A DNA stretch of 64,000 nt from Branchiostoma floridae (lineage: Eukaryota > Chordata > Leptocardii > Amphioxiformes > Branchiostomatidae). Made by a program: the position numbers and the translations under genes. The DNA is taken from the NCBI RefSeq assembly GCF_000003815.2, contig NC_049996.1, positions 14,421,786-14,485,785 on the forward strand. The letters are read 5' to 3'. This document shows, one piece after another, positions 29,650-64,000 of the stretch (within the stretch, counting starts at the first letter, position 1; each line of letters starts with the position of its first letter). The notes beneath the pieces are model-generated. The model was not told the origin of the DNA and did not search any database. It was given only the letters and a program-made list of their open reading frames with translations.

Positions 29650-30010
29650 TAAATTAGTCTGTAGCTTGTAGAAAAACAAAATTCCTTTCGTTGGACATAA
29701 TCACCATTTCTCACGCAAGGCAAATCATTTTTCATATTCATAGTTTCGTGGTATTCTATCACTTGTAGAAAACAAAATGTCATTCAAGCCCGTACCACGC
29801 CTCTCGTCGAGCATAATCACCAATACTTAAAAAGACAAACCGTTTTCCATATTCATGCAGTTTTTGTGGTATTGTATCACTTGTAGAAAACAAAATGCCA
29901 TTCAAAATACAAACCACGCCTCTGGCTGCAGCTGGGCATAATCACCATTACTTCAAAGTACAAACCATTTTCCATATTCATGCAGTTTTTCACGGTATTG
30001 TACATATCCA
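29650..30010 (+). repeat. Upstream tandem repeat of gene A, 3 units
   Basis: Three copies of a unit of about 115 bp carry GTAGAAAACAAAATG, ACCACGCC(T) and a CATAATCACCATT(A/T)CTT segment. The last ends about 40 bp before the start codon, so the array probably overlaps the promoter or 5' UTR. Genes B, C and D have 5, 3 and 7 units. Confidence 0.75.
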
Positions 30011-30047
30011 GACGTCGCATTGTAGCGCAGATGCCAGTACAGTACAG

Positions 30048-31652
30048 ATGTACGCGCAAGCACAGCCGGTTCGGGACCCGGGCAGGGGACCCGGCAGCCG
30101 CCCCAAAACCGTTGAGACACCGCCACCACCTCTTCCTGTCCGCCAGAGCGGTGCAACAGGGCGTGTCTACCATGGCAACGGCGCTTCTGGACAGCCGAAG
30201 GAAGGGCCAAGAACCTCTCCAAACATTTACGAATCAGCAGAAGCTGTGAAACCACAGAATGTTTCGGAGGGCGGCAGGCGTCATGTCAACATACCTGGTG
30301 GAATGGATACATCTACGGGTAAGCTCTAGCTAATGGACCGATCCTGTCGAACGCCATATCGAACAAATAGAACCCCCTATTCTATTTCGAACACCTCCGT
30401 CAAAAGCTGCCACAGCAGGACAGAAATGGCTATTTTTGACGGAGGTGTTCGAAACAGAACCATGATCGAACAGGGGGCGGGGTTTTGGGATCGGTCCATT
30501 TGTATAGCCGGCCGGTAGAAGCCCCTTCTGCGTAACACACAATGCCAGCTTCTATATCTATGGACAGGAATGGTTTGTAATAAGAAGTGTTTTGGAATAC
30601 GTGTGCGATACTACCATTATTGAAGGAATGCATGCTATCTTCCTGCACTTATCTATTTTCTTACAGGATATATGAATATGATTAACTTGAGGTGAGAATT
30701 ATGTTAAAGTCTAGTGATAGGAGTTATACTTAATACATCACAATGTTCACTTCTAGATATATTCATTTGTAATTGTACCGAATAGACTATGAATTGTTCT
30801 AGCCTTCACTAAAGCTTATAAATCCCTTCGGTCGATATTTCAAATCCCCCACCACATTCTTCACTGCGAAATCAACAAAGGCAGGTTCTACGTGCTCTAA
30901 ATTAATTTCTTTTATATTATTGGGCGAATTTTATATATCTTTCTCACCAAGGCCTTCTTTTGCAGTCTTTAGCTGTTATGTTGATATATGATATTTAGTC
31001 GTAATAACCAGCGTGAATTATGATTTGTTGACCAGACGACGCCTACAAGGTGGGCCGAAGCTGCCGCCGTGTTTTCTGTGATTTCCTCCGTCTCCACCTG
31101 TGTTGTCTGGCCGCCACCCTGACGGTAGTAGTGACCCTCGTCACTATGGGATGTCTGCTCATGGTCTCCGTCAATGCCAAGTTCGACAAGCATGAACAGG
31201 TCAGGACTTCGTGTATACTAGTACCTACTTACTTACTGCCCTTTGTCCTTCTGACATGTAGGACAGCAACAAAAGATCCTCAGCTCTTCGAGTCTTAGGA
31301 TACTATTTCAAGTATGGTTGAAAAACTCCGGTTCTTTCGAAACTGTTCGTCTTCTTCGGTCGGTCTTGCTTCCTCTTTCCTTCTGGCGTGTAGTGTAGCG
31401 TAGTGCTTGTCAGTGCTCACGCAAATCCTTTAGAACAAGCTGTTTGGGGACACAAACCTTCACAAATACTTCCTTTCACAAAATCTACCTGACACCAAAA
31501 TATAAAGATCACAGCATGTTCAAAAGATACAAAAAATGGAAGGTCCACTGCAGTATTAAGGACATACACCAGTGGTTCAAAAAGTGACTCCTACTCACAC
31601 ACCAAATATCATTACAATCCATCATTACAAAACATACAGACAAACACACACA

Positions 31653-31704
<52 letters not shown>

Positions 31705-34700
31705 TTGTTTGACAATGGATATGGTACACAATATCATAATCATTTAGATATACCAGAACAGTTCTGGTACCTCACCTTTGCCCTTACAATTTACTGTATG
31801 CCCTGTCGACAATAACACGTTGTTTTTCTGCAAGTAGCAGACTAATTTGAATGGAGTTATTAATCTAAACATGAAAGCGTACACATGATAGGATGATATT
31901 TAGAATGGCGTTTGAGAAACTCTTGCCTTAATTGCATTTTTTAACGTGTTTAACTTGTTAATGTTTTTTTTAGTTATTAATCAAAATATGAAAGGGTACA
32001 TATTAAAGGCTGATATTTGAAAATGCGCAGAGAAACCCTTTTATTAATGCATTTTTGTTATGTGTTTACCGCCTCTTCGTCTCATTTGTTTCTTTTCATT
32101 ATATGAAGAATAATATGAAGTGCCTTTCTCATCTCCATCTCCTTAGGAAATCTGGCACCTGTCTACCAGGGTTGACGTTCTGACACGCAATCTGGACAAT
32201 GAACGGAACCGAACTGCACTTATGGAACAGCGACTTATGGGAAAACGCAAGATGGCAGGTAAGCGACATGTTAGCGTGGATTTTTGTTGAAGTTAAAGAG
32301 GTAAGGTGATGGCGACTTACATTGGGTTTGAAGGATTGTTGGTCCATACAACAATGATCTTGCGTCTTGTGTTTTTCATCAACTGAATCGTTGATGAATT
32401 TTACATTTATTCATTTTGTCCATAGGTTCTAGCTTCTCGTACTTTGATACGGATGCAAATTTGTTTGTCTTTTACATTCTCTAGATGCTCATTTTGGCCT
32501 CGACCGAAAGATTGCACCCCCTGGACCCCCTGGACCACCCGGAGCACGCGGACCAACTGGACACCGAGGATCCCCTGGACAACCCGGGTCACCTGGACGA
32601 TCCGGACGCCGTGGAAAACCTGGACAACGTGGACCTCCTGGCCCTTTCGGACCCCCTGGACTCCCTGGACCTCTCGGACCCCCTGAACCACCTGTAGCTC
32701 TCGGGCCACCTGGAACACTCGGACTCCCTGGACCTCTCTGGCCCCGTGGACAACCCGGACCTCTCGGACCCCCTGGACAACCCGGACCTCTCGGTCCCCC
32801 TGGACAACCCGGACCTCTCGGTCCCCCTGGACAACCCGGACCTCTCGGTCCCCTGGACAACCCGGACCTCTCGGACCCCCTGGACAACCCGGACCTCTCG
32901 GGCCACCTGGAACACTCGGACTCCCTGGACCTCTCTGGCCCCGTGGACAACCCGGACGTCTCGGACCCCCTGGAAAACCCGGACCTCTCGGACCCCCTGG
33001 ACAACCCGGACCTCTCGGTCCCCCTGGACAACCTGGACCTCTCGGACCCCCTGGACAACCCGGACAACCCGGACCCCCTGGACAACCCGGACGTATCGGA
33101 CCCCCTGGACATATCGGACCTCCTGGACAACCAGGACCCCGTGGACCACCCGGGAATATCGGGCCCATTGGACGACAGGTCTCCATTAGGCATACTGGAC
33201 AACCTGGACCCCCTGGACAACCAGGACCACATGGCCAATCGTGACCTCTTGGACCCCCTGGACAACCCAGGCATTCCGGACCCCCTGGACAACCCGGGCC
33301 ACGTGGACCCCCTGGACCCCATGGACAACCTGGAGCCTCTGGACTGGCCTCCCGGACAACCTGGAGCTCATGGACAACCCGGACCACGTAGACAGCTCGG
33401 ACCCTCTGGACAACCCGGACCCCCCGGACCTCTCGGGTCCACTGGACACTTTGGACAACCCGGACATTTCGGAGGTCCAGGGCCCAGTGGACAGCATGGA
33501 ACTCTGGATCTCACTGGGCAAAAGGAGTCCATTAGAAAACCAGGCCTTCCCAGCTCACAAGGACAACCCCGCCCTTCCAAACACCGTGGACAACCTGGAA
33601 ACATTGGGCAACCCGAAACTATCGGGCCCAATGGACGACAGGTTCCCAATAGACAAACCGAGCTTCCCGGACCCACTGGACAACTCGGACTCCCGGAGGA
33701 AATCGGTCTTCCCGGACCCCGCGGAGAACCTGGATCACATGGCCAATCCGGGATCCCTGAACTTTTAGGACCCCCTGGACAACCCAAGCTCCGTGGACAA
33801 CCCAGGAAAATTTGGCAACCTGAAACTCTCGGGTTGAATGGAAGACAGTTGCCCAATAGAAAAATTGACCTTCCCGCACCCCCTGGACATTTCGGACCTT
33901 CTGGTCAACCGAAACCCCGTGGAGAACCCGGAAACGCTGGGCAACCTGGAACTGTCGGATTCAATGGAAGACCCATTGGACAAACCAGACCCTCCGGACA
34001 TTCTGAACCTTCGACCCAACAGCGCAAACTGGCCAGCGGAAACCTTCAGTACACCAGCCTAGGTTGCTGGAAGGAGAAAGTCTACAACCGCGCCATTCCG
34101 ACACTTGAGGGGACAGATCCACGTCTTACTGACCGCTTTAATTCCCGTGAAAACGCCATCGAAACGTGTTACCAGGCAGCACTATCCCGTAGTTTTACCA
34201 TGTTTGCTCTACGGAATGGCGGAGAGTGTTTGGGGTCTGCAGATGGACACAACACTTACAAAATGTACGGGCGTTCCTCAGCCTGTCATGTGGATGGCGA
34301 AGGCGGGCCTTGGGCAAATGAGGTCTACGAAATTACAGGTGAGGCTCTGATAAATATTGTATACAACAACCCGCAAATCTGATTTTGTTTGATATACAAT
34401 TCCATATCAAATTACATGCGGGAATATCTACGCTCTCTCCAAGCCATGTTTTTTTCTATTTCAGCTGCCCGGAGCTACGGTTGCCGAGTCGGATACACAC
34501 TCCTCGCTGCCACGACCTGCGTTCGGCTCGATGTCCAAGAAATGCCCTACGACAACGCCAAGATGGTCTGCAAGAAGGAAGGGGCGACACTAGCCATGCC
34601 GAAAACAAAAGAAATGGACGTCGCTTTGAGAAACCTGGTCCGCGATGAAGGCCAAAACGAAATGTATTGGATCGGTATGAGGAACAAGATCGGTATGAGG

Positions 34701-35085
34701 AAGAGGATCTTTCGTCAGAGACGCTGGCAATGGGAGGATGGGTCCTTTCTTAAGCATGGTGAATACAAGGTACGCCTTCTTAACTGTTTAAAGAAATCTG
34801 TGTCTTCATTCAACAAATTTAGAAAACTTTTACTCATCTTTATCAAAGTTATCAACATTCATACATAATGCTACATCTTTTTATCATCGTAGAACTTAAA
34901 AATGGTATCTATCTTTTTTTTATAAACAGGGATGGAATCCAGGAGAGCCAAGGAATTACCCGACGTGGCCTCATCGGTATGACCTGTGCGTGATGTACTG
35001 GTCTGTTCCCACTGGGTCTCCTATGTGGGATGACAACCCGTGCAAACATCACCACCGCTTCATCTGCCAAACACGTCCTTCATAA
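30048..35085 (+). CDS. Gene A: type II membrane collagen-stalk C-type lectin receptor (six exons)
   Basis: Exons 30048-30318, 31036-31199, 32147-32258, 32485-34338, 34465-34769 and 34930-35085 join in frame (phases 1,0,1,1,0) to 953 residues. The cytoplasmic tail is Pro-rich and has NIYES. The membrane helix is about residues 110-136 after a CRR basic stretch. A short coiled coil with an NRT sequon follows (146-182). The stalk is collagen-like from about 193 to 690, then comes a WSC-like module (about 703-800, GCWKEK, AIETCYQ, DGEGGPW) and a long-form C-type lectin domain (801-953). Two compensating indels make residues about 306-470 read as an Asp/Leu/Pro/Asn repeat instead of Gly-X-Y. The lectin motif is EPR, not EPN, with WDD in place of WND. 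The ATG chosen is the one conserved in all four paralogues. A surface pattern-recognition role is inferred from architecture. Confidence 0.85.
30335..30497. mobile_element. MITE in intron 1 of gene A, absent from paralogues
   Basis: The ends GGACCGATCC / GGATCGGTCC are inverted, and an inner pair TTCGAACACCTCCGTCAAAA is also inverted. Genes B, C and D lack the insert. The empty site in B reads CTAATTTGTATA and the filled site in A has AT on both sides (30333-30334, 30498-30499), giving a 2-bp AT target duplication. Confidence 0.85.
31641..31703. repeat. (CA)n microsatellite in intron 2 of gene A
   Basis: About 30 CA units interrupted by a few CAAA steps. The matching intron of gene B has a shorter (ACAGAC)n run at about 38766-38790. 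Confidence 0.95.
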
Positions 35086-37480: not shown

Positions 37481-37521
37481 TAGACGGCGCACCCGCGTCG
37501 TGCTTGTACAGAACAGTAGAG

Positions 37522-40500
37522 ATGTACGCGCGAGCACAGCCGGTTCGGGCCCCGGGCAGGGGACCTGGCAACCGCCCCAAAACAGGCGGGACACCGCCTC
37601 CACCTCCTCCTGCCCGTCAGATTGGTGAAACAGGGCGTGCCTGCCATGGCAACGGCGCTTCTGGACAATCGAAGGAAGGGCAAAGAAACATTTCCGAAGC
37701 AGCAGAAGCTGTGAAACCGCAGAAAGTCTCGGAGGGCGGCAGGCGTCACGTCAACATACCTGGTGAAATGGATACATCTACGGGTAAACTCTATCTAATT
37801 TGTATAACCGGCCGGTAGAACCCCCTTCTGCGTAACACACAATGCCAGCTTCTATATCTATGGAATGCAATGGTTTGTAATAATAGTCGTTTTGGAATAC
37901 GTGTGCGACACTACCATCATTGAAGGAATGCATGCTGCCTACCTGCACTTTCGTGTATTTTCGTACAGGATATATGAATATGATTATGTTGAAGTAAGAA
38001 TTGTGTTAAAATCGAGTCTTATGATAGGTGTTATACTTCATACATCATAATGTTCACTTCTGAATATATTCAGCTGCACAGAATAGACTATAATTGTTCT
38101 GGTCTTCACTAAAACTTATAAATTGCTTGGGTCAAGATTTTAAATCCCCCACCACTTCCTTTATTGCGAACTCAATATAGACAGGTTCTATACGTGCTCT
38201 GAATTAATTTGTTTTATTTCATATCTTTCTCATTAGGCCTTCTATTGCAGTCTTTAGCTGTTATGTTGATATGATGTTTATGAGATTTAATTCGTAATAA
38301 CCAGCGTGAATTATGATTTGTTGACCAGACGACGCCTACAAGGTGGGTCGAAGCTGCCGCCGTGTTTTCTGTGATTTCCTCCGTCTCCACCTGTGCTGTC
38401 TGGCCGCCACCCTGACGGTAGTGGTGACCCTCGTCATTCTGGGATGTCTGCTCATGGTCTCCGTCAATGCCAAGTTCAACAAACATCAACAGGTCAGAAC
38501 TTTGTGTCAATGGCCACGCAAATCTCTTAGAACAAACTGCTTGGGGGCCCAAACCTACACAATTTTTTCCTTTCACCAAAAGAAATGTGCAATCAAAATA
38601 TAAAGATCAAACCATGTCCAGGACAAAAGATACAAAAACCGGAAGTTCTGCTGCAGTATTTTTGTCTTTCAAACATACCAAATGTCATTACAATCCATGC
38701 AGAGGTTCTAAAGTTATTCTGACCAAAAATATCCGGTAAAACAAACAAGCATGCACACACATACATAGACACAGACACAGACACAGACACACCAAAACAA
38801 TTCCTCCATTTTTCATACTTTTTCGTTACCTAATTTTGCCCTTACATTATTTACTGTGTGCGCTAGTATCGACAATAACATGTTTTTCTGCAAGTAGCAG
38901 ACTAATTTGGATGTGAATTGAACATAAAAACGTATATATGAAAGGCTGATATTTGAATAGCCGTTTGAAAAACTCTTTAATTTTCTTTATGTGTTTACCG
39001 ACTCTTCGACTTTTTTTGAGTGAATGATCATGACTAATCTTTCTCATTACAATATCCTTAGGAAATCTCACACCTGTCTACCAGTGTGGACGTCTTGAAA
39101 CGCAACCTGGACAACGAGCGGAACCGAACTACAGTCATGGAGCAGCGACTTAACGAAAAATGCAAGATGTCGGGTAAGTTAGGTTTGCTTGACGTTTTAA
39201 CATTAGAATCAACATTAAAAGAAAGTTTTAGCATCCTCTGTTTCAACATATGAATTCGGTATCTACTATAGGTATTTTTTAATGATGTTTTTCCATGCAA
39301 GGTCAGTATTGGTCACTTCTGGCTCTTCTAAGTTGAGGAGGTTTTGAGATACAATTGTTTAGTATCTAAGAAGCTATTGAAAATGAGTCTACATCCTATT
39401 TGAGTAGAGTTACCAGAATTTCATTATAATTAAGTAATATACACAAAAATAGTTAGGAGCTAGAAGTGTACAATTTGTACATGTTTTGAAGGATTATGGG
39501 TTGAATTTGTTTTATTGTGAGAGTTTCAGTCCGATGAAATAAGCTGTTGTTATACTTATAGGAGGGCTTTGACAAGGATATTTGGGCACTGCAGGGACGT
39601 GAGCAAGAAGAGAATCTAGTGTTACACTGAAATACTCTCAGTTATGATTTTACGTCTTGTGTTTAACATCAATTTAAATCGTAACAATTCTACATTTTTC
39701 TTTTGTCCACAGGTTTTAGTTTCTCTTACTTTAACACCGATGCAGTGTTTTTCGCCTTGTATGTTCTAGATGCTCATTTTGGCCTCGACCGAATGATTGG
39801 ACCCCCCGGACAGCCCGGACCACCTGGACAACGAGGTCCTCTTGGACCCCCTGGACCACCCGGAGTACCCGGACCAACTGGAAAAAGAGGACGACAAGGA
39901 GGTCGTGGAAGACCTGGACCTCGCGGACCCCCTGGACCAACTGGACCCCCTGGACCTCATGGACAACCCGAACAACCCAGAAACCCTGGACAACATAGCC
40001 TTATCGGACCCGCTGGACAACCCGGCCCGCCAGGACTCCCTGGAAAGCTTGGACCCCGTGGACCCATTGGGCCCCACGGACCTATCGCCCAACCTAGACC
40101 AACAGGACCTCTTGGGTCCCCTGAACAACCTGGACCTCTTGGGCCCCCTGGAGAACCCGGACCTCTTGGGCCCCCTGGACAACCCGGACATCTTGGGCCC
40201 CCTGGACAACCCGGACCGCTTGGGCCTCTTGGGCAACCTGTCCCTGTCGGGCCCCCTGGACAACCCGGACCTTTTGGGCCTCTTGGACAACCCGGACCTC
40301 TTGGGCCTTTTGGACAACCTGACCCTCTCGGACATCATGGACAACCTGGTCCTCTCGGATCCCCTGGACAACCTGACCCACTCGGACCACTTGGACAACT
40401 CGGATCCTCTGGACAACCTGTCCCTGTCGGGCCTCCTGGACAACCTGGCCCTCTCGGGCCCCCTGGACACTTCGGATCCCCTGGACAACCTGGACCTCTT

Positions 40501-42579
40501 GGGCCCCCTGGACAACGCGGACCTCTTTGGCCTCCTGGACAGCCTGACCCTCTCGGACCTCTTGGACAACCTGACCCACTCGGACCACTTGGACAACTTG
40601 GATCCTCTGGACAACCTGGCCCTCTCGGATCCCCTAGACACTTCGGATCCCCTGGACAACCTGGTCCTCTCGGATCGCCTGGACAACCTGGCCCTCTCCG
40701 ACCTCTTGGACAACCTGGCCCTCTCGGAACTCTTGGACAACTTGACCCTCTCGGACCACTTGGACAACTCGGATCCTCTGGACAACCTGGCCCTCTCGGA
40801 TCCCCTTTAGATCTCGGATCCCCTGGACAACCTAACCCTCTCGGACCCCCTGGACAACCTGGCCCTCTCGGAACTCTTGGACAACCTGACCCTCTCGGAT
40901 CCCCTGGACAACCTGGCCCTCTCGGAACTCTTGAACAACCTGACCCCTTTGGACCACTTGGACAACTCGGATCCTCTGGACAACCTGGCCCTCTCGGACT
41001 CCGTGGACAACCCGACCCTCTCGGACCTCCTGGACAACCTGGCCCTTTTACTGTACACACATGTACTGGCCCATCGTGTCCTCCTGGCCAACCTAAGAGT
41101 CTGACTTCTCAATCAAAAGAACAATCGATCCAACAGCGCCAACCGGCCAGCGGAAGTCGTCACTACACCAGTCTGGGTTGCTGGAAGGACAAGCCTAACC
41201 GCGCCATTCCGACGCTTGAGTTAACAGATCTACGTCTAGATTGTAGGTACGGTTCCCATAAAAACGCCGGCTACAAGATCCGTGAAAATCCCATAGAAAA
41301 GTGCTACCAGGTCGCACGTTCTCGTGGTTTTACCGTGTTTGCTGTGCAGGATGGCGGACAGTGTATGGGGTCTGCAGATGGACACAACACCTACATGAAG
41401 CACGGGCCCTCCACACTCTGTCTAGCGGACGGCGAAGGCGGGCCTTGGACAAATCATGTCTACCAAATCACAGGTGAGCTCATATGAATAATGTAATAGG
41501 GTCACTCATCCACCGCTGCCACCAAATGTAGCGAGTGGCCGATCTAGGGTAACTCAGAGGGGAGGTCCGAATGCATTTGCTTACACTCCAGAACGGACTA
41601 GACCACTAGGGTCGGTCGTCTTTATTGCCATTCCGAGCTAACATAAACCAGATGGACAAAATATCAAAATATATGGATTTACGCCCTTCCGAGTCAAGGC
41701 ATGTTTTTGGACAGACGAGGACAATGTACCACTGCACTCATTTTTTTTAACTCGAATTAATGGTGCTACGAACACAGTACAGACATAGGTAAAGGTAGTA
41801 TTTTCTATTACCTTCCCGACCGAAGTCAGGTACCCATTTTTACACCTGGGTGAAGTGAGGAAGGTCGATCGTGTAAAGTGCCGTTCCCAAGGACGCTCTA
41901 CCAGTTATGTCACACACAAAGCCATGTTCTTTCTCTGTTTCAGCTACTATGAGCGACGGCTGCCGAGTCGGATACACACTACTCGCTGCCACGACCTGTG
42001 TTAGGCTCGATTTCCAAGAAATGACCTACTGGGACGCCAAGAATTTCTGCGAGAAGGAAGGGGCGACACTAGCCATGCCGAAAACGAGAGAATTTGACGT
42101 AGCTTTGAGAAACCTGGTCCGCAAGGAAGGCCAAAACCTCCTCTATTGGATCGGCATGAGGGACAAGGGGTGCTTTCTTCTTCATAAGAGAAACTGGATA
42201 TTTGAAGATGGGTCTCATCTTGGCAACTACAAGGTACGCCCTCTTCATTGTTTATTGCCCAAAGAAAACTCCACAAGTCAGAATGCAATATTTTCTTTCA
42301 ACGAATGCAGAACATGCTTACCTTTACCAGGAGTATTAGTCAGCATTCTACACAATGTTCCGGGCTTTAAGTCACTGACGAACCTCAAACATTAATACTT
42401 ATTCCTTTTTTTTAAACCAGGGATGGCACCCAAGAGCGCCAAATGACAAGAGGTGGTCCCATATTTCCAATGATCGACTGTGTGTGCTGTACAGGCCAGA
42501 ACCCACTGGTACTCCTATGTGGGACGACAGTCACTGCCGTATGAAACACAGCTTTCTCTGTGAAACTCCTCTTGCGTGA
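37522..42579 (+). CDS. Gene B: type II membrane collagen-stalk C-type lectin receptor (six exons)
   Basis: Exons 37522-37783, 38329-38492, 39062-39173, 39770-41473, 41944-42233 and 42421-42579 join in frame to 896 residues with the same phases as gene A. The tail has a PPPPPP run but lacks the Tyr motif of its paralogues, because exon 1 is 9 nt shorter ([10 protein letters not shown]). The helix is at about 107-133 and the coiled coil with NRT at about 143-179. The stalk (about 190-640) is the longest uninterrupted frame of the four but has about nine Gly-to-Asp/Asn steps. The WSC-like module (about 644-747) has an extra Cys and about 8 extra residues. The lectin domain (748-896) has RAPN instead of EPN, plus WDD. 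The 3' exons are nearly identical to gene C. Intron 3 has a second in-frame acceptor at 39713. Confidence 0.88.
41700..41915 (-). mobile_element. SINE remnant in intron 4 of gene B
   Basis: Minus-strand remnant of the SINE family seen at 24050, with the GGTGTAAAAATGGGTACC core. The tRNA-like B-box is deleted, leaving only the head bases GGTAGAGCGT. The same remnant is in genes C and D, so it predates their duplication; gene A lacks it. Confidence 0.75.
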
Positions 42580-45879: not shown

Positions 45880-46085
45880 TGTACAATGACCACCTATACA
45901 TAAGCACCACCTGTACATAAGCACCACCTGTACACAAGGACCACCTGTACACAAGGACCACCTGTACATAAGGACTACCTGTACATAAGGACTACCTGTG
46001 TACAAAATACCACCTGTACACAATGATCACCTGTACATAAGGATCACCTGTACATAAGGACCACCTGTACATAAGGACCAGGGAA
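45880..46085. repeat. 18-bp minisatellite, spacer B-C
   Basis: About 11 copies of CCTGTACATAAGGACCAC with small variants. The same array is much longer before gene D (54228-54975) and recurs at 63810. Confidence 0.95.
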
Positions 46086-47030: not shown

Positions 47031-47062
47031 CGCATTGCAGTGCAGATGCTAGTACAGTACAG

Positions 47063-50000
47063 ATGTACGGGCAAGCACAGCCGGTTCGGGCCCCGGGCAG
47101 GGGACCCGGCAGCCGCCCCGAAACAGGCGGGACACCGCCACCACCTCCTCCTGTCCGTCAGAGTGGTGCATCAGGGCGTGCCTGTCATGGCAACGGCGCT
47201 TCTGGACAGTCGAAGGAAGGGCCAGGAACCTCATCAGACATTTACGAAGCAGCAGAGGCGGTGAAAACGCAGAAAGTCTCGGGAGGCGGAAGGCGTCACG
47301 TCAACATACCTGGTGGAATGGGTACATCTACGGGTAAGCTCAATTAACTGTTATAGATATCCGATAGAACCGCCCTTCGGTACTGCACACCAGCTTCTGT
47401 ATCTGTATCTGTATCTGTACAGTGGTTATAACAGATCTTCCCTCTAACACCTTACCTTCTGTATCTGTATCACCACCCATTGCCGTAAAACACCAACTTT
47501 TGTATGCTACCGAAAAGGGTTGCAGTCCTTAGTAGGGGACGTTAAGCTGCGGCGTCCCCCTTCACTGTGCTTGCAATTGTTAAGCTGGGGAATTTTCCCG
47601 GTACACAACGAAACCTGTAAATACTATACATAACATAACATATGTCTTCTTTGTCACGATCAGTCTAAGATTGGGTTTTCAGTGAGCTAAACTGGATCGA
47701 GATCCCTTCCACTTTCTTTATGATTTTTTTTTCACCAGACGACGCCTACAAGATCGGCCGAAGCCGCCGCCGTGTTTTCTGTGACTTCCTCCGCCTCCAC
47801 CTGTGCTGTCTGGCCGCCACCCTGACGGTAATGGTGACCCTCGTCATTCTGGGATGTCTGCTCATGATCTACGTCAATGCCAAGTTCAACAAACATCAAC
47901 AGGTCAGGACTTCGTGTAAACTACTAGACTTACTTATTTACTGTCCATTATGCGTCCTGGCATGTAGGGCAGCTTCAAAAGATCCTCTGCTCTTCCGGTC
48001 TTGGGCCACACCCTCTGGCTACCAATCCAAGTATGGTTGAAAAACTCCGGTTCTTTCGCAACTGATCGTCTCCGATTGTTATTCGGTCGGTCTTGCTTCC
48101 TTTTCCCTTCTCGCGTGTAGCGTAGTGCTTGTCAATGATCTGTTAATGTTCAAAAATGTTCACGCAAATCTCTTGGAACAAGCTGCTTGGGGGCCCAAAC
48201 CTAAACAAATTCTTCCTTTCACCAAAAGCTATCTGCCACCAAAATATAAAGACTATACCATGTTCAGGACAAGATACAAAAATCGGAAGTTCTTCTGCAG
48301 TATTATGGCCACACACCAGGGGTCCAAAAGTTGATTTGGGCCTAGCCTTCGTCTTTCAAACACCTACCCACATACTAAATGCCATTACAATCCATCTAGA
48401 CGTTTTAAAGTTATTCTGATCACAAATATCTGGAAAAATGTAGACACACATACAGACACCGCAAAACTATTCCTTCATTTTTCATACATTTTCGGTATCT
48501 AGTTTTGCCCTTACATTATTCACTGTTTGCGATGATATCGACAATAACATGTTTTTCTGCAAGTAGCAGACTAATTTGGATGTGAATTGAACATAAAAGC
48601 GTATATATGAAAGGCTGATATTTGAATAGCCGTTTGAAAAACTCTTTCATTTATGTGTTTACCACCTCTTCGGCTTCTGTTTTTTGAGTAAATGAAAAGT
48701 CTTGCCTCACTTGCCTGTGCCTTTCTCATCTCAATCCCCTTAGAAAATCTGGCACCTGTCTACCAGGGTGGACGTCCTGACACGCAACCTGGACAACGAA
48801 CGGAACCGAACTGCAGTCATGGAACAGCGACTTAACGAAAAATGCAAGATGTCGGGTATGTTAGGTTAGCTTGAAGTTTTAACATTAGAATCAACATCAA
48901 AATGAAATGTTAGCATCCTCTGTTTCAACATATGAAGTTGGTATCTACTTAAGGTATTTTAGTGAGTTCCAGTCCGTTGAAATAAGCTGTTGTTATAGGA
49001 GGTCTTTGAAAAGGATATTTGGGCAGTGCAGTGACGTGAGCAAGAAGCGAATCTAGTGTTACATTGAAATACTCTCAGTTATGATTTTACGTCTTGTGTT
49101 TAACATCAATTTAAATCGTAACTATTCTACATTTTTCTTTTGTCCACAGGTTTTAGTTTCTGTTACTTTAACACTGATGCAGTATTTTTGCCTTGTAATT
49201 GTAGATGCTCATTTTGGCCTCGACCGAAAGGTTGGACCCCCTGGACAGCCCGGACCACCTGGACAACCAGGCCCTCTTGGACCCCCTGGACCACCCGGAC
49301 TACCCGGACTAACTGGAAAAAGAGGACGACAAGGAGGTCGTGGAAAACCTGGGCCTCGCGGACGCCCTGGACCCCCTGGACCTCAAAGACAACCCAAACA
49401 ACCCCAAAACCCTGTACAACCTAGCCCTCTCGGACCACTCGGACCCCCTGGACTTCAAGGACCCCCTGGACAACCCAAACAATCTGGATTCCCTGGACAA
49501 CCTGACCCTCTTGGACCACTTGGACAACTCGGATCCCCTGGACAACCTGGCCCTCTGGCACCTCTTGGACAACCTGACCCTCTCGGATCCCCTGGACAAC
49601 CTGGCCCTCTCGGATCCCCTGGACAACCTGGCCCTCTCGGAACTCTTGGACAACCCGACCCTCTCGGACCACTTGGACAACTCGGATCCCCTGGACAACC
49701 TGGCCCTCTTGGACCTCTTGGACAACCTGACCCTCTCGAACCTCTAGGACAACCTGGCCCTCTCGGATCCCCTGGACAACCTGGCCCTCTCGGAACTCTT
49801 GGACAACCTGACCAACTTGGACCACTTGGACAAATCGGATTCCCTGGACAACCCGGTCCTCTCGGACCTCTTGGACAACCTGACCATTTCGGATCCCCTG
49901 GACAACCTGACCATCTCGGATCCCCTGGACAACCTGGTCCTCTCGGATCCCCTGGACAACCTCACCCTTTCGAAACTCTTAAACAACCTGACCCTCTCGG

Positions 50001-52464
50001 ATCCCCTGCACAACCTGGTCTTTTCGGATCCCCTGGACAACCTGGCCCTCTCGGACCCCCTGGACAAACGGAACCCCGTGAACAACCCGAAACCAATGTA
50101 TATGGACAACCCGGAAATTTCGGGCCCACTGGAAGACAGATCTTCATTAGACAAACTGGATCCCCTGGACAACCCGGCCCTCTCGGACCTTCTGGACAAC
50201 ATAAGCCTACCGAACACTCTGCACAGCTCGAAGCTGGCCGACTCGGTCTACCCTTGGAATTTTGGGATAAATCCCATCGTCTGACGGATTTGCATGATGC
50301 GCACGGACCNNNNNNNNNNNNNNNNNNNNNNNNNNNNNNNNNNNNNNNNNNNNNNNNNNNNNNNNNNNNNNNNNNNNNNNNNNNNNNNNNNNNNNNNNNN
50401 NNNNNNNNNNNNNNNNNNNNNNNNNNNNNNNNNNNNNNNNNNNNNNNNNNNNNNNNNNNNNNNNNNNNNNNNNNNNNNNNNNNNNNNNNNNNNNNNNNNN
50501 NNNNNNNNNNAAAGTGTTACCAGGTCGCATGTTCTCGTGGTTTTACCGTGTTCGCTGTGCAGGATGGCGGGGAGTGTTTTGGGTCTGTTGACGGACACAA
50601 CACCTACAAAAAGTACGGGCCTTCCACACTCTGTCCAGCGGACGGCGAAGGCGGGCCTTGGATAAATCATGTCTACCAAATTACAGGTGAGACTCATATG
50701 AATAATGTAGCGAGTGGCCGAGCTAGGGTAACTCATCCCACCGCTGCCACCAAATGTAGCGAGTGGCCGAGCTAGGGTAACTCATCCCACCGCTACCACC
50801 AAATGTAGCGAGTGGCCGAGCTAGGGTAACTCATCCCACCGCTACCACCAAATGTAGCGAGTGGCCGAGCTAGGGTAACTCATCCCACCGCTGCCACCAA
50901 ATGTAGCGAGTGGCCGAGCTAGGGTAACTAATCCCACCGCTACCACCAAATGTAGCGAGTGGCCGAGCTAGGGTAACTCATCCCACCGCTGCCACCAAAT
51001 GTAGCGAGTGGCCGAGCTAGGGTAACTGATCCCACCGCTACCACCAAATGTAGCGAGTGGCCGAGCTAGGTCAACTCATCCCACCGCTGCCACCAAATGT
51101 AGCGAGTGGCCGAGCTAGGGTAGCTTTTGCTACCGCTGCCACCAAATGTAGCGAGTGGCCGAGCTAGGGTAGCTTTTGCTACCGCTGCCACCAAATGTAG
51201 CGAGTGGCCGAGCTAGGGTAGCTTTTGCTACCGCTGCCACCAAATGTAGCGAGTCGCCGAGCTAAGGTAAGTCATCCCCGCTGCCACCAAATGTAGCGAG
51301 TGGCCGAGCTTAGGTTACTCATCCCCGCTGCCACCAAATGTAGCGAGAGGCCGACCTAGGGTAACTCAGAGAGGGTGTCCGGACGCATAGGCTTGAACTC
51401 TACAACTGACTCGACCACGAGGGTCGGTCGTCTTTATTGCCATTCCGAGCTAGCATAAACCAGATGGGCAAGGGCCCCCATATATGGTGGAACCTGGTCC
51501 TCACAAAAGTATTGAGAAGGAAAGTGGTGTTGGCCATATGTTTCCATATCAAAATAAATGGATTTACGCCCTTCCGAGTCAAGGCATGTTTTTGGACAGA
51601 CGAGGACAATGTAGCACTGTACTCAAATTAGTAAGTTAAATTAACGGTGATACGAACACAGTACAGACATAGGTAAAGGTAGTCTTTTCTATTACCTTCC
51701 CGACCGAAGTCAGGTACCCATTTTTACACCTGGGTGAAGTGAGGAAGGTCGGTCGTGTAAAGTGCCGTTCTCAAGGACGCTCTACCAGTTACGTCACACA
51801 CGAAGCCATGTTCCTTCTCTGTTTCAGCTCCTCGGAGCGACGGCTGCCGAGTCGGATACACACTCCTCGCCGCCACGACCTGCGTTCGGCTTGATTTCCA
51901 GGAAATGACCTACTGGGACGCCAAGAAGGCCTGCGAGAAGGAAGGGGCGACACTAGCCATGCCGAAAACGAGAGAATTTGACGTAGCTTTGAGAAACCTG
52001 GTCCGCAAGGAAGGCCAAAACCTCCTCTATTGGATCGGCATGAGGGACAAGGGGTGCTTTCTTCTTCATAAGAGAAACTGGATATTTGAAGATGGGTCTC
52101 ATCTTGGCAACTACAAGGTACGCCCTCTTCATTGTTTATTGCCCAAAGAAAACTCCACAAGTCAGAATGCAATATTTTCTTTCAACGAATGCAGAACATG
52201 CTTACCTTTACCAGGAGTATTAGTCAGCATTCTACACAATGTTCCAGGCTTTAAGTCACTGACGAACCTCAAACATTAATACTTATTTCTTTTTTTTAAA
52301 ACCAGGGATGGCACCCAAGAGCGCCAAATGACAAGAGGTGGTCCCATATTTCCAATGATCGACTGTGTGTGCTGTACAGGCCAGAACCTACTGGTACTCC
52401 TATGTGGGACGACAGTCACTGCCGTATGAAACACAGCTTTCTCTGTGAAACTCCTCTTGCGTGA
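47063..52464 (+). CDS. Gene C: chimeric type II collagen-stalk C-type lectin receptor (six exons)
   Basis: Exons 47063-47333, 47739-47902, 48744-48855, 49205-50686, 51828-52117 and 52306-52464 join in frame to 825 residues; an N run covers residues about 551-618. Layout: Pro-rich tail with DIYEAAEAV (Tyr61), membrane helix at about 110-136, coiled coil with NRT, stalk from about 193 to 520 with repeated GQPDPLG breaks, WSC-like module to about 676, and lectin domain 677-825. Exons 1-4 are nearly identical to gene D. Exon 6 and most of exon 5 are nearly identical to gene B, with the RAPN and WDD lectin motifs. Exon 3 begins AAA where its paralogues have GAA, so Lys replaces Glu after the helix. 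KAC replaces NFC in exon 5. Both changes keep the frame. Confidence 0.87.
50310..50510. other. Assembly gap inside gene C exon 4
   Basis: 201 undetermined bases. The matching span in gene D (59799-59999) is also exactly 201 bp, so the frame is kept and the gap size is probably right. It covers the join between stalk and WSC-like module. Confidence 1.
50706..51365. repeat. 49-bp minisatellite in intron 4 of gene C, about 14 units
   Basis: Units start TGTAGCGAGTGGCCGAGCTA and continue to CCGCTGCCACCAAA. Gene D has about 10 units, gene B one, gene A none. It begins within about 20 bp of the exon 4 donor. Confidence 0.95.
51590..51805 (-). mobile_element. SINE remnant in intron 4 of gene C
   Basis: Orthologous to the remnant in gene B intron 4, with the same internal deletion of the tRNA-like B-box. 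Confidence 0.75.
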
Positions 52465-56515: not shown

Positions 56516-56563
56516 GTACATATCTAGACGGCGCATTACAGTGCAGATGCTAGTACAGTACAG

Positions 56564-59500
56564 ATGTACGGGCAAGCACAGCCGGTTCGGGCCCCGGGCA
56601 GGGGACCCGGCAGCCGCCCCCAAACAGGCGGGACACCGCCACCACCTCCTCCTATCCGTCAGAGTGGTGCATCAGGGCGTGCCTGTCATGGCAACGGCGC
56701 TTCTGGACAGTCGAAGGAAGGGCCAGGAACCACATCAGACATTTACGAAGCAGCAGAGGCGGTGAAAACGCAGAAAGTCTCGGAGGGCGGCAGGCGTCAC
56801 GTCAACATACCTGGTGGAATGGACGCATCTACGGGTAAGCTCAATTAACTGTTATAGATATCCGATAGAACCGCCCTTCGGTACTGCACACAAGCTTTTC
56901 TATCTGTATCTGTATCCGTACAGTAGTTATAACAGATCTTCCCTCTAACACCCTACCTTCTTTATCTGCATTACCACCCATTGCCGTAAAACACCAACTT
57001 TTGTATGCTACCGAAAAGGGTTGCAGTCCTTAGTAGGGGACGTTAAGCTGTGGCGTCACCCTTCACTATGCTTGTTGAGGTGGGGAATTTTCCGGTACAC
57101 AACGAAACCTGTAAATACTATACATAACATATGTCTTCTTTGTCACGATCAGTCTAAGATTGGATTTTCAGTGAGCTAAACTGGATCGAGATCCCTTCCA
57201 CTTTCTTGATGATTTTTTTTCACCAGACGACGCCTACAAGGTGGGCCGAAGCCGCCGCCGTGTTTTCTGTGATTTCCTCCGCCTCCACCTGTGCTGTCTG
57301 GCCGCCACCCTGACGGTAGTGGTGACCCTCGTCACTCTGGGATGTTTGCTCATGATCTCCGTCAATGCCAAGTTCAACAAACATCAACAGGTCAGGACTT
57401 CGTGTAAACTACTAGACTTACTTACTTACTGCCCTTTATGCGTCCTGGCATGTAGGGCAGCTTCAAAAGATCCTCTGCTCTTCCGGTCTTGGGCCACACC
57501 CTCTGGCTACCATTCCAAGTATGGTTGAAAAACTCCGGTTCTTTCGCAACTGATCGTCTCCAATTGTTATTCGGTCGGTCTTGCTTCCTTTTCCCTTCTC
57601 GCGTGTAGCGTAGTGTTTGTCAATGATATGTCAGTGTTCAAAAATCTTCACGCAAATCTCTTGGAACAAGCTGCTTGGGGGCCCAAACCTAAACAAATTC
57701 TTCCTTTCACCAAAAGCTATCTGCCACCAAAATATAAAGACTATACCATGTTCAGGACAAGATACAAAAATCGGAAGTTCTTCTGCAGTATTATGGCCAC
57801 ACACCAGGGGTCCAAAAGTTGATTTGGGCCTAGCCTTCGTCTTTCAAACACCTACCCACATACTAAATGCCATTACAATCCATCTAGACGTTTTAAAGTT
57901 ATTCTGATCACAAATATCCGGAAAAATGTAGACACACATACAGACACCGCAAAACTATTCCTTCATTTTTCATACATTTTCGGTATCTAGTTTTGCCCTT
58001 ACATTATTCACTGTTTGCGATGATATCGACAATAACATGTTTTTTCTGCAAGTAGCAGACTAATTTGGATGTGAATTGAACATAAAAGCGTATATATGAA
58101 AGGCTGATATTTGAATAGCCGTTTGAAAAACTCTTTCATTTATGTGTTTACCGCCTCTTCGGCTTCTGTTTTTTGAGTAAATGAAAAGTCTTGCCTCACT
58201 TGCCTGTGCCTTTCTCATCTCAATCCGCTTAGGAAATCTCGCACCTGTCTACCAGGGTGGACGTCCTGACACGCAACCTGGACAACGAACGGAACCGAAC
58301 TGCAGTCATGGAACAGCGACTTAACGAAAAATGCAAGATGTCGGGTATGTTAGGTTAGCTTGAAGTTTTAACATTAGAATCAACATCAAAATGAAATGTT
58401 AGCATCCTCTGTTTCAACATATGAATTTGGTATCTACTTAAGGTATTTTAGTGAGTTCCAGTCCGTTGAAATAAGCTGTTGTTATAGGAGGTCTTTGAAA
58501 AGGATATTTGGGCAGTGCAGTGACGTGAGCAAGAAGAGAATCTAGTGTTACATTGAAATACTCTCAGTTATGATTTTACGTCTTGTGTTTAACATCAATT
58601 TAAATCGTAACAATTCTACATTTTTCTTTTGTCCACAGGTTTTAGTTTCTGTTACTTTAACACTGATGCAGTATTTTTGCCTTGTAATTGTAGATGCTCA
58701 TTTTGGCCTCGACCGAAAGGTTGGACCCCCTGGACAGCCCGGACCACCTGGACAACCAGGCCCTCTTGGACCCCCTGGACCACCCGGACTACCCGGACTA
58801 ACTGGAAAAAGAGGACGACAAGGAGGTCGTGGAAGACCTGGGCCTCGCGGACGCCCTGGACCCCCTGGACCTCAAAGACAACCCAAACAACCCCAAAACC
58901 CTGTACAACCTAGCCCTCTCGGACCACTCGGACCCCCTGGACTTCAAGGACCCCCTGGACAACCCAAACAATCTGGATTCCCTGGACAACCTGACCCTCT
59001 TGGACCACTTGGACAACTCGGATCCCCTGGACAACCTGGCCCTCTGGCACCTCTTGGACAACCTGACCCTCTCGGATCCCCTGGACAACCTGGCCCTCTC
59101 GGATCCCCTGGACAACCTGGCCCTCTCGGAACTCTTGGACAACCCGACCCTCTCGGACCACTTGGACAACTCGGATCCCCTGGACAACCTGGCCCTCTTG
59201 GACCTCTTGGACAACCTGACCCTCTCGAACCTCTAGGACAACCTGGCCCTCTCGGATCCCCTGGACAACCTGGCCCTCTCGGAACTCTTGGACAACCTGA
59301 CCAACTTGGACCACTTGGACAAATCGGATTCCCTGGACAACCCGGTCCTCTCGGACCTCTTGGACAACCTGACCATTTCGGATCCCCTGGACAACCTGAC
59401 TATCTCGGATCCCCTGGACAACCTGGTCCTCTCGGATCCCCTGGACAACCTCACCCTTTCGGAACTCTTAAACAACCTGACCCTCTCGGATCCCCTGCAC

Positions 59501-61851
59501 AACCTGGTCTTTTCGGATCCCCTGGACAACCTTGCCCTCTCGGACCCCCTGGACAAACGGAACCCCGTGAACAACCCGAAACCAATGTATATGGACAACC
59601 CGGAAATTTCGGGCCCCCTGGAAGACAGATCTTCATTAGACAAACTGGATCCCCTGGACAACCCGGCCCTCTCGGACCTTCTGGACAACATAAGCCTACC
59701 GAACACTCTGCACAGCTCGAAGCTGGCCGACTCGGTCTACCCTTGGAATTTTGGGATAAATCCCATCGTCTGACGGATTCGCATGATGCGCACGGACCAT
59801 CGTGTCCTCCTGGCCAACCTAAGAGTTTGACTTCTCAATCAAAAGAGCAATCGATCCAACAGCGCCAAGCGGCCAGCGGAAGTTGTCAGTACACCAGCCT
59901 GAGTTGCTGGAGGGACAAGAAAAACCGCGCCATCCCGACGCTTGAGTCTACAGATCCACGCCTCGATGGCTACTACCTTAATCGTGAAAACCCCATCGAA
60001 AAGTGTTACCAGGTCGCATGTTCTCGTGATTTTACCGTGTTCGCTGTGCAGGATGGCGGGGAGTGTTTTGGGTCTGTTGACGGACACAACACCTACAAAA
60101 AGTACGGGCCTTCCACACTCTGTCCAGCGGACGGCGAAGGCGGGCCTTGGATAAATCATGTCTACCAAATTACAGGTGAGACTCATATGAATAATGTAGC
60201 GAGTGGCCGAGCTAGGGTAACTCATCCCACCGCTGCCACCAAATGTAGCGAGTGGCCGAGCTAGGGTAACTCATCCCACCGCTACCACCAAATGTAGCGA
60301 GTGGCCGAGCTAGGGTAACTGATCCCACCGCTGCCACCAAATGTAGCGAGTGGCCGAGCTAGGGTAACTGATCCCACCGCTACCACCAAATGTAGCGAGT
60401 GGCCGAGCTAGGTCAACTCATCCCACCGCTGCCACCAAATGTAGCGAGTGGCCGAGCTAGGGTAGCTTTTGCTACCGCTGCCACCAAATGTAGCGAGTGG
60501 CCGAGCTAGGGTAGCTTTTGCTACCGCTGCCACCAAATGTAGCGAGTCGCCGAGCTAAGGTAAGTCATCCCCGCTGCCACCAAATGTAGCGAGTGGCCGA
60601 GCTTAGGTTACTCATCCCCGCTGCCACCAAATGTAGCGAGAGGCCGACCTAGGGTAACTCAGAGAGGGTGTCCGGACGCATAGGCTTGAACTCTACAACT
60701 GACTCGACCACGAGGGTCGGTCGTCTTTATTGCCATTCCGAGCTAGCATAAACCAGATGGCCCAGGAACCCCCATATATGGTGAAACCTGGTCCTCACAA
60801 AAGTATTGAGAAGTAAAGTGGTGTTGGCCATATGTTTCCATATCAAAATAAATGGATGTACGCCTTCCGAGTCAAGGCATGTTTTTGGACAGACGAGGAC
60901 AATGTACCACTGCACTCAATTTTTTTAACTTGAATTAACGGTGCTACGAACACAGTACAGACATAGGTAAAGGTAGTCTTTTCTATTACCTTCCCGACCG
61001 AAGCCAGGTACACATTTTTACACATGGGTGAAGTGAGGAAGGTCGATTGTGTAAAGTGCCTTTCCTAAGGACGCACTACCAGTTGCGACACAGACGAAGC
61101 CATGTTTCTTCTCTGTTTCAGCTGCTCGGAGCGACGGCTGCCGAGTCGGATACACACTCCTCGCCGCCACGACCTGCGTTCGGCTCGATTTCCAAGAAAT
61201 GACCTACTGGGACGCCAAGAATTTCTGCGAGAAGGAAGGGGCGACACTCGCCATGCCAAAAACAGAAGAGTTGGACGTCGCTTTAAGAAACCTGGTCCGA
61301 GGGGAAGGCCAAAACCAAATGTATTGGATCGGTATGAAGAAAAAGGGGAAGACGTTCCTTCGTTGGGAATGGGAAGATGGGTCTATTCTTAAGCCTGGCA
61401 AATACAAGGTACGACTTTTTAATTGTTTGTTACTTGTTACTTAAATAAAACTATACAAACCATAATATAATGCTGTTAACAATTTCAGAAAATTCCTAAT
61501 CACATTTACCAGAAGTCAGCATTCCTACATAATGATTAATGTCACATATTTCATGTCATTGTGTCTATTTATATATTTATATATTGGTTTGGCTGTTAAG
61601 CACGCACGGCCAGGGCTGCCCACCTAGCCTGTGGCTATCACAATCATCATAGAACCTCAAATATGATATTTACTATTGAAAAACAGGGATGGAATCCAGG
61701 AGAGCCAAACGGTACCAAGGGGTGGCTCCATGCGGGTTCACCGTGCGTGATGTATTGGTCAGAACCCACTGGGTCTCCTATGTGGGACGACACCAGGTGC
61801 ACCGAACACCGCCGATTCATCTGCCAAACTCCTCGTATACAAATGGGGTAA
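56564..61851 (+). CDS. Gene D: type II membrane collagen-stalk C-type lectin receptor (six exons)
   Basis: Exons 56564-56834, 57227-57390, 58233-58344, 58694-60175, 61122-61408 and 61687-61851 join in frame to 826 residues. Domains: Pro-rich tail with DIYEAAEAV, membrane helix about 110-136 ([17 protein letters not shown]), coiled coil 146-182 with an NRT sequon, stalk about 193-520, WSC-like module about 580-676 ([22 protein letters not shown]), and lectin domain 677-826. The lectin domain has the long-form six Cys, a WIG motif and GEPNG, so it alone keeps the EPN mannose-type calcium-site motif; WND is WDD. The 5' half is nearly identical to gene C, with about seven stalk differences. The last exon and 3' flank are closer to gene A. 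This is the best complete model of the family here. Confidence 0.9.
60190..60660. repeat. 49-bp minisatellite in intron 4 of gene D, about 10 units
   Basis: Same unit as in gene C intron 4. Variant units (GCTTTTGCTACC, GTCGCCGAG) occur in the same order in both genes, so the array was copied whole and then changed length. Confidence 0.95.
60880..61095 (-). mobile_element. SINE remnant in intron 4 of gene D
   Basis: Same remnant as in genes B and C, slightly more diverged from both (for example ACACATTTTTACACATGG). Confidence 0.7.
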
Positions 61852-62767: not shown

Positions 62768-63054
62768 CGCTATTTAGGACTGTGTTAGTATTGTGTACAC
62801 CAAAGGCCACATTCTTCATTATTACAAGAGAATGTAAGTAGGAAGTATTGCCACAGTCGACACAAGTTGCTTAAAAGCTGCCAGCATTAACTTGGAATCT
62901 TCATCATTTACTACCTAGCTCTGAGAGACACCACAATATGTCGCACTGCACATGCGCAATTGAAACTGTGAAGTGCCGTATTGCTGTACCATTTTTAAAT
63001 ATGTTAAAAAAGCACGTTTGTTATGTAATAACCGTTTGCTTTGTAGCATTTCTA

Positions 63055-63060
63055 AATAAA
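63055..63060 (+). promoter_or_regulatory. Candidate polyadenylation signal, gene D
   Basis: AATAAA in the conserved TTTCTAAATAAAATGTG string, about 1.2 kb past the stop. A nearer AATAAA is at about 61920. Confidence 0.45.
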
Positions 63061-63679
63061 ATGTGAAAACACCCATGCATTTTTCGTTCAGTTATGAGTT
63101 GATATTTTTCTCATCGATCTAATAGGTCACCTAATGAAAGAGGTTACCATGGCAAGAGTCACACACGCCTCATAATGCTTCAGAAACTTTAACAAAAGTG
63201 CCAGGTTGAAAAATAACTCCATGACTAAGGTTTTGCTGGTTATGCGAATGAGCCATTTGCATTGGATATTCACCTCAACCCACGTTATACAATGGTCACA
63301 GCTGCAAGAGGGCCTGTAGGTGGTGCAGCCGATATTGGCCGTTTGACCGGCGGACACGAGGAAAACGTGACAAAATAGAGAAAGTCCGGCAAAACCGCCT
63401 AAATACGTCAGAAACCAGCCAAAGCCGAACGTCTGCTTGGAGAATAGCTCTGAAGTCTGCAGGACTCCGTTTATCGTTACCCTCTACCAGGCTCAGCCGA
63501 TCAGTGGTCTAATGGTAGAAATTGGACAAAGAGTGTCAAAACCAAGCTAGGGGAGTCCGCCGGCCAGAGGAGTTATTTCCTCCTCGCGCCGGTAAACACT
63601 CTATGCCAATTAACTCCTACTAGGTTTTTATTCCTAACTTGGCCAAAGTCCCGTATTCCCATTCGGCCAGGCGGGAGTC

Positions 63680-64000
63680 TGGTGGAGACTAGGTTGTCGT
63701 AGCCACAACTAGATTTGTCCTGTAGGGGTCCTGGATAGCTCGCTCGCGTGTTACACAAGCTTTCGCTGTCAGAAGGTGACTGGGCCTCCTTCTAGGGGCC
63801 TGACCAGTGCTGTACAAGGACTACCTGTCCATAAGGACCACCTGTACACAATTACCACCTGTACATAAGGACCACCTGTACATAAGGGCTACCTGTACAC
63901 AAGGATTACCTGTACATAAGAACAACCTGTACACAATGACCACCTGTGCATAACGAACAACCTGGTACACAAGGGAATCTACCTGTGCATAAGTACAACC
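63680..64000. repeat. Cluster spacer motif and 18-bp minisatellite at the window edge
   Basis: The segment 'AGCCACAACTAGATTTG...TAGCTCGCTCGCGTGTTACA' precedes the 18-bp array here as it does at 45770 and 54115, where a receptor gene follows about 1.1-2.3 kb later. The array runs off the window. Confidence 0.85.

Follow-up and report, generated by a model that had tools for sequence, protein, structure and literature searches.

A tandem array of predicted membrane collagen-lectin receptors with a WSC-like module in Branchiostoma floridae

Class A scavenger receptors are type II membrane proteins with a coil, a collagenous stalk and a C-terminal head, which in SCARA4 is a C-type lectin domain, as described in the accessible part of PMC3567963. 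Members of this class, such as SCARA4/COLEC12 (collectin placenta 1), MARCO and SR-AI, share the succession of coil, collagen stalk and C-terminal recognition head with the products predicted here for a tandem array of genes in the lancelet Branchiostoma floridae. The array lies in a 64-kb window (the whole stretch of DNA analysed, C18:14421786-14485785 of contig NC_049996.1), to which all positions refer, and its relatives were sought in a 513-Mb assembly of 431 contigs. A first-pass annotation of the window had proposed that the domain order of these genes departs from the class A scavenger receptor plan, and the plan laid out in the accessible part of PMC3567963 supports this.

Four units, all on the plus strand, are found in the window (A at 30048-35085, B at 37522-42579, C at 47063-52464 and D at 56564-61851), and a fifth, decayed unit, E (L029), begins beyond it at about C18:14487194. 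The local duplication claimed by the annotation is thereby borne out, and the array consists of five units in the order A, B, C, D, E; no sixth unit beside it was found among the listed helix, tail and lectin matches. In the spliced models of A-D each unit has six exons with start phases of 0, 1, 0, 1, 1 and 0 in 4/4 cases, AG/GT at all internal boundaries and stop-free spliced frames, in agreement with the six exons and identical intron phases noted earlier. The first three exons encode, in turn, a proline-rich tail, a membrane helix and a heptad coil; exon 4 encodes a collagen-like stalk and a WSC-like module, both in the one frame of that exon, and exons 5 and 6 together encode a C-type lectin domain (Table 1). 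The predicted products have 953 (A), 896 (B), 825 (C) and 826 (D) residues, the run of N in C being counted as 67 residues.

The units had also been described as four complete paralogues, which holds for B and D and fails for A, where collagen register is lost, and for C, where 201 N fall in the WSC part. In A, the GXY repeat is carried by a different frame at 32855-33349 (approximately 495 bp), and that other frame has a stop at 33242; the gene frame is open across this stretch and is not collagen there. The loss may be real or an assembly slip. The N run of C occupies 50310-50510 and brings exon 4 to 1482 bp, precisely as in D; it may be an assembly gap or a masked stretch. In unit E the frame is broken in both exon 1 and exon 5, and of exon 4 there remain about 42 codons from its start, directly followed by the final codons of the WSC-like part, so that most of the collagen and of the WSC-like module is missing.

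The collagen-like nature of the stalk is indicated by matches to Pfam Collagen in all four exon-4 frames (E 8.4e-28 to 4.2e-43) and by a glycine register beyond chance, with 120 of 122 glycines of the B stalk in one frame. Residues in runs of at least three GXY number 213 in A, 327 in B, 228 in C and 219 in D, as against maxima of 69-117 in 1000 shuffles per stalk. All four stalks thus reach the threshold of at least 70 residues given for collagen in the accessible part of PMC3567963, the 213 residues of A being split by the register loss. The heads match Lectin_C (PF00059) in 4/4 units after exons 5 and 6 are joined, with 52-68 bits against a cut-off of 22.6, E of 1.2e-13 to 1.6e-18 and coverage of profile positions 2-107. 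Of the domain order claimed in the annotation, collagen and lectin are therefore recovered by Pfam in every unit, whereas the module between them stays under the Pfam cut-off: WSC (PF01822) scores 11.5-17.5 bits in the four exon frames and 19.5 for the D module alone, below the required 27.8, and for this reason the module is named WSC-like. WSC is the sole Pfam family that matches all 11 module sequences compared, three from the array and eight from elsewhere (best E 1.6e-5), and C6, W7, C39, C59 and C78 are invariant in the 11. The module stands between collagen and lectin in A, B and D, and in C its C-terminal part is seen. A search by sequence for a solved structure related to it found none, and the tail, helix and coil of D have no Pfam family at E 0.1. 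All four lectin heads carry WDD. An EPN-type motif is linked to sugar binding, and many sugar binders have WND. Since GEPN is present only in D (A has GEPR, B and C have RAPN), the heads may differ in sugar binding, and not all of them need bind sugar.

Each chain of A-D has one hydrophobic peak, with a maximum of 2.3-2.6 within residues 111-134, and no hydrophobic window above 1.6 starts before residue 100. Net charges before and after the helix, the former over 15 residues, are +2/-1 in A, +2/+1 in B, +2/+3 in C and +2/+1 in D. A type II topology with a cytoplasmic N terminus is accordingly what prediction yields for these chains. In the best of seven registers, the heptad a and d positions of exon 3 are hydrophobic at 7-8 of 11 positions, versus 3-5 of 26 elsewhere, in 4/4 copies. 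The tails of A-D carry MYxQAxPV-like and YExAExV-like motifs, B having Ser for the second Tyr. These motifs are not of the YxxL kind; once phosphorylated, they could bind SH2 proteins.

In this assembly, unit C is a hybrid of a D-type front and a B-type head. Over 46890-51684 its identity to D is 98.3% and that to B 83.6%; over 51955-54030 the values are 67.1% for D and 97.0% for B. The switch zone between these stretches (approximately 270 bp) runs from late intron 4 into the beginning of exon 5. B and D are 91.5% identical to each other in this zone, which starts some 300 bp downstream of a 49-bp minisatellite present in long form in C and D. One unequal crossover between D and B would leave a gene with a D front and a B head between B and D, and such an origin is suggested for C because this is where C stands. 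Conflicting histories are also seen when C is set aside: among A, B, D and E, 82 of 84 informative sites of intron 1 put A with B and D with E, 55 of 69 in introns 2 and 3 put A with E and B with D, and exon 5 gives 10, 9 and 2 sites for the three groupings, so that the heads yield no clear one. Intron 1 exists in two nearly unalignable types, with 88% identity between A and B, 96% between C and D and 72-73% between E and C/D, as against 44-49% between types. A clean four-combination reassortment of fronts and heads among A-D was considered and dropped, since the front sites grouping A with B and C with D, and the back sites grouping A with D and B with C, follow from C alone, which is almost the same as D in front and as B behind.

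The front of these genes is widespread in the genome. Genome-wide matches represent the best-scoring 150 or so candidates per query, so that counts are lower bounds and absences weak. The tail exon has at least 150 matches (the best 150 of 232 candidates), 144 of them outside the array, and the helix exon has 35 (of 229 candidates), with 30 outside. For the WSC-like module there are at least 150 (the best 150 of 209 candidates), and the idea that it is special to this locus was abandoned, as 146 of them lie outside the array; Lectin_C likewise has at least 150 (the best 150 of 1565 candidates). A sample of 24 tails combined the four window tails with those from 20 of 25 loci elsewhere that had good matches, L014, L020, L045 and L050 giving no frame under the sampling pattern and L034 being left out. 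MYxQAxPV or a close form is present in all 24, a count that is partly by construction, as the pattern itself required part of this first motif, and a YExAExV-like motif is present in 23, the exception being B with Ser for Tyr. The coil exon begins with TAG|GA in phase 0 in 7 of 8 loci, and that of L014, missed by the pattern, was found by tblastn. Judged by its tail motifs, helix and phase-0 coil exon, the front of the array is a member of a large superfamily in this genome.

Elsewhere, the same front precedes heads of several kinds, which would share a transcript with the tails to judge from order and strand. A Fibrinogen_C match (E 7e-33) lies downstream of the front on contig C16 (L014/L052). 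On C14 (L015/L053), 3.3 kb beyond the helix exon, there is an intelectin that matches XEEL at E 1.3e-104 and intelectin-1 at about 1e-100; the search for a coil exon at this locus found none. On C17 (L019) a helix, a coil and a 21-residue GXY run are accompanied by lectin similarity. Seven further tails were followed for about 4 kb, three of them without a head (L054, L058 and L060) and four with one. The head is Lectin_C at two of these four (L055 on C10 and L059 on C12), a kringle at L057 on C1, and an unnamed module in two copies at L056 on C9. The last, at 1425-2360 on the minus strand of L056, consists of two copies of an approximately 100-residue module without a Pfam or NCBIfam match, downstream of a tail, helix and coil front.

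A comparison of coordinates took in 149 tail places (one half-match in E omitted), 150 WSC-like matches, 245 lectin places and 78 collagen matches (one per cluster out of 152); the lectin places comprise the 150 Lectin_C matches and 95 of the 150 from a second search, after omission of 52 repeats and 3 second lectin exons. A lectin place lies within 5 kb downstream of 44 of the 149 tails versus within 5 kb upstream of 21, a control that tandem clusters inflate, and within 10 kb downstream of 52. Among the matches listed, a WSC-like place lies within 10 kb downstream of 4 of the 149 tails, all in the array; 14 others are followed within 10 kb by a lectin place on their strand, none of them with a tail match, and five lie within 5 kb downstream of a lectin place. 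Front and WSC-like module are thus combined, among the scored matches, only in this array. The notion that the array holds the only membrane collagen-lectin of the genome was dropped, L019, L033 and L034 being of this sort too. A broader picture, offered tentatively and at somewhat less than even odds, is that of a superfamily in which one conserved front for signalling and anchoring has been joined to lectin, collagen-lectin, collagen-WSC-lectin, fibrinogen, intelectin, kringle and unnamed-repeat heads, where exchange by unequal crossing-over and germline reshuffling would give new specificities with a fixed output.

With regard to the origin of the gene plan, in 7/7 loci elsewhere the WSC-like module has flanks compatible with a phase 1-1 exon of its own, as judged by eye, and exon 4 of A-D, with collagen and WSC-like parts, is itself 1-1. 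The residues before the module are SGS in B and D and SGN in A, and the free exon starts with TGS in several loci, a likeness that looks as if an intron had been lost. Exon shuffling would be a known route, since strong 1-1 exon shuffling, together with fast turnover of C-type lectin genes, is reported for lancelets in the accessible part of PMC4284660; that of PMC12373286 describes C-type lectin domains as over-represented among dispensable lancelet genes.

The reading preferred here, with a probability of roughly 0.6, is that the intact units encode trimeric type II glycan receptors assembled by insertion of a 1-1 exon, and that C arose through unequal crossover between D and B. Trimeric type II receptors appear likely because topology, coil and collagen are as in the class A scavenger receptors of PMC3567963, in its accessible part. 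The N-terminal tail would be cytoplasmic and the single helix would anchor the chain at the cell surface, with the coil starting the trimer and the interrupted collagen-like rod holding the head off the membrane. The WSC-like module and the C-type lectin domain would form the glycan-binding head, whose ligands are probably microbial, and trimerised heads would provide avidity; the tail, with its two tyrosine motifs and proline run, would carry a signal or drive uptake, in what may be an immune role. In evolutionary terms, a phase 1-1 exon in which collagen is fused to the WSC-like module would have been put between an older front of tail, helix and coil and a split-exon lectin head, and the array would still be exchanging parts, with C derived by unequal crossing-over of D (front) and B (head) near the boundary of intron 4 and exon 5. 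Several points weigh against this reading. The collagen rod is much interrupted, with a longest run of 17-19 triplets, GEPN is confined to D, the second tail tyrosine is lost in B, and the charge of C is higher after the helix than before it, contrary to the usual type II rule. To these are added the register loss in A, the decay of E and the consideration that an assembly error in a heterozygous genome could mimic the hybrid C. Furthermore, novel domain combinations in lancelets are described in the accessible part of PMC4967905 as often being gene-prediction errors, with a Lectin_C case among them.

Such a false fusion would be at hand if each unit held two genes, one for a membrane protein with collagen and WSC (exons 1-4) and another for a C-type lectin (exons 5-6), as would fit both the report in PMC4967905, so far as accessible, and the lectin places elsewhere that have no tail match upstream among those listed. 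This appears highly improbable. Exons 1-6 are likely one gene, because the collagen and the WSC-like module share an exon, intron 4 of A measures only 126 bp, the 1/1 phases hold in 4/4 units and E retains the end of exon 4 next to its lectin exons; moreover, every exon 4 reads through to an in-frame donor without meeting a stop, and inspection by eye revealed no signal peptide in frame before exon 5. That the units are a decaying remnant devoid of present function is also quite unlikely, even if the frame breaks of E in exons 1 and 5, the loss of most of its exon 4, the register loss of A and the missing second tail tyrosine of B point that way. The frames of B (896 codons) and D (826 codons) are open throughout, and the ratio of nonsynonymous to synonymous change (dN/dS) is below 1 in the modules compared, at 0.19-0.89 in 26 of 27 pairwise module comparisons (0.19 for the heads of B and C), the 27th, coil C-D, having no synonymous change. 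A one-sided Fisher test on 10 of the 27 comparisons gave p<0.05, uncorrected, in 8, the other two being tail A-B (0.12) and WSC A-D (0.051).

Greater weight, though still on the doubtful side, attaches to the view that C is an assembly artefact in which alternative haplotypes of a D-front and a B-head were misjoined. Lancelet alleles can reach the range of 1.7-3.0% difference, and C differs from D by 1.7% in its front part and from B by 3.0% in its back part; C also contains the N run, and in the switch zone, with its 91.5% identity of B and D, short runs of both kinds alternate. Against this, the hybrid sits where the product of a crossover is expected, and A, B, D and E on their own show conflicting histories between intron 1 and introns 2-3. 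As for function, the products could be structural or gut-mucosal adhesion proteins and not immune receptors, which seems unlikely. Collagen and WSC modules do occur in matrix and adhesion proteins as well, but the same front is found upstream of several kinds of carbohydrate-recognition head, and duplication with head exchange is typical of recognition receptors. The adhesion view gains from PKD1, whose WSC and C-type lectin domains are linked to Wnt and matrix binding in the accessible part of PMC9672506.

The accessible part of PMC3567963 mentions a proposal that domain swapping gave class A scavenger receptors different heads. In the present array, from a basal chordate, a hybrid and its two parents seem to lie side by side, and the same front stands before other heads elsewhere in the genome. 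Should transcripts confirm this, the locus would be a test case for innate receptors that change specificity while the signalling half stays, and would also test whether the domain innovation reported for lancelets (PMC4284660, accessible part) is real or an annotation artefact (PMC4967905, accessible part). What most deserves further attention is the hybrid gene C, together with the shared front.

Table 1. Exons of units A-D and repeat and switch features of the array, in window positions.
Feature	Position	Strand	Basis
A exon 1, cytoplasmic tail (predicted)	30048..30318	+	exon model
A exon 2, membrane helix	31036..31199	+	exon model, hydrophobicity
A exon 3, heptad coil	32147..32258	+	exon model, heptad count
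A exon 4, collagen-like stalk + WSC-like module; collagen off register ~32855-33349	32485..34338	+	Pfam, exon model
A exon 5, C-type lectin domain part 1; intron 4 = 126 bp	34465..34769	+	Pfam, exon model
A exon 6, C-type lectin domain part 2 + stop	34930..35085	+	Pfam, exon model
B exon 1, cytoplasmic tail (predicted); second motif Ser for Tyr	37522..37783	+	exon model, tail motif survey
B exon 2, membrane helix	38329..38492	+	exon model, hydrophobicity
B exon 3, heptad coil	39062..39173	+	exon model, heptad count
B exon 4, collagen-like stalk + WSC-like module (WSC-like 41164-41472)	39770..41473	+	Pfam, exon model
B exon 5, lectin part 1	41944..42233	+	Pfam, exon model
B exon 6, lectin part 2 + stop	42421..42579	+	Pfam, exon model
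C exon 1, cytoplasmic tail (predicted)	47063..47333	+	exon model
C exon 2, membrane helix	47739..47902	+	exon model, hydrophobicity
C exon 3, heptad coil	48744..48855	+	exon model, heptad count
C exon 4, collagen-like stalk + WSC-like module, 201 N inside (50310-50510)	49205..50686	+	exon model
49-bp minisatellite, 13.7 copies, intron 4 of C	50704..51368		repeat scan
Switch zone, C D-like before and B-like after; short runs of both inside	51684..51955		pairwise comparison
C exon 5, lectin part 1, B-type head	51828..52117	+	Pfam, exon model
C exon 6, lectin part 2 + stop	52306..52464	+	Pfam, exon model
D exon 1, cytoplasmic tail (predicted)	56564..56834	+	exon model
D exon 2, membrane helix	57227..57390	+	exon model, hydrophobicity
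D exon 3, heptad coil	58233..58344	+	exon model, heptad count
D exon 4, collagen-like stalk + WSC-like module (WSC-like 59890-60174)	58694..60175	+	Pfam, exon model
Same 49-bp minisatellite, 9.7 copies, intron 4 of D	60193..60661		repeat scan
D exon 5, lectin part 1	61122..61408	+	Pfam, exon model
D exon 6, lectin part 2 + stop; GEPN motif kept	61687..61851	+	Pfam, exon model

Around the units, tandem repeats of 125 bp (29717-30002) and 112 bp (56057-56384) are situated just upstream of exon 1 in A and D, and relatives of them also precede B and C, possibly as promoter-side repeats. A 17-bp minisatellite recurs between units (54231-54976, 45888-46080 and 63816-63974), with up to 43.7 copies. 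Elsewhere in the window, a single 656-residue frame on the minus strand (1581-3551) has RING, B-box and NHL matches, as in a gene of the TRIM-NHL type. A 675-residue frame on the same strand (19963-21990) matches reverse transcriptase and RNase H and would belong to a retroelement, perhaps one without long terminal repeats (non-LTR). A 16-bp minisatellite of 39.6 copies (19091-19722) stays open in several frames of either strand.

In comparison with known systems, SCARA4/COLEC12 has its lectin directly after the collagen, whereas in the array the WSC-like module lies between them; the lectin of the array is moreover split over two exons, and its tail, helix and coil belong to the superfamily of this genome. 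Among solved structures, the head of D matches collectin placenta 1 (2ox9) at E 2.1e-8, while LY75, DC-SIGNR and several others match better. Closer at hand, two loci on contig C5 (L033 and L034) have tail, helix, coil, collagen and C-type lectin domain as in the array, the Pfam run covering L033 only, and differ from it in a shorter collagen and a lectin in one open frame; no WSC-like frame was present in the 2.7 and 3.4 kb read there, and no scored WSC place lies within 10 kb. On contig C7, at 12.08 Mb, L031 (C7:12080500-12088500) has a same-strand series of modules, in which a WSC-like one is followed by galactose-binding, kringle and split-exon lectin modules. It resembles the array in having a WSC-like module upstream of a split-exon lectin, and is unlike it in the galactose-binding and kringle domains in between and in the lack of a tail match within 10 kb upstream, among the matches listed. 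Polycystin-1 (PKD1) has, to our knowledge, neither collagen nor a type II anchor. Like the array, it combines a WSC and a C-type lectin domain in one protein, and unlike it, it is a large multi-pass protein with LRR, PKD, GAIN and channel parts, as presented in the accessible part of PMC9672506. No description of the architecture of the array was found in literature titles and abstract openings, which is weak evidence of absence, as the subscription literature lay mostly outside the search. On the best reading of these likenesses and differences, 1-1 exon shuffling would have made the array a variant of the membrane-collectin and class A scavenger receptor plan, and not a new kind of receptor.

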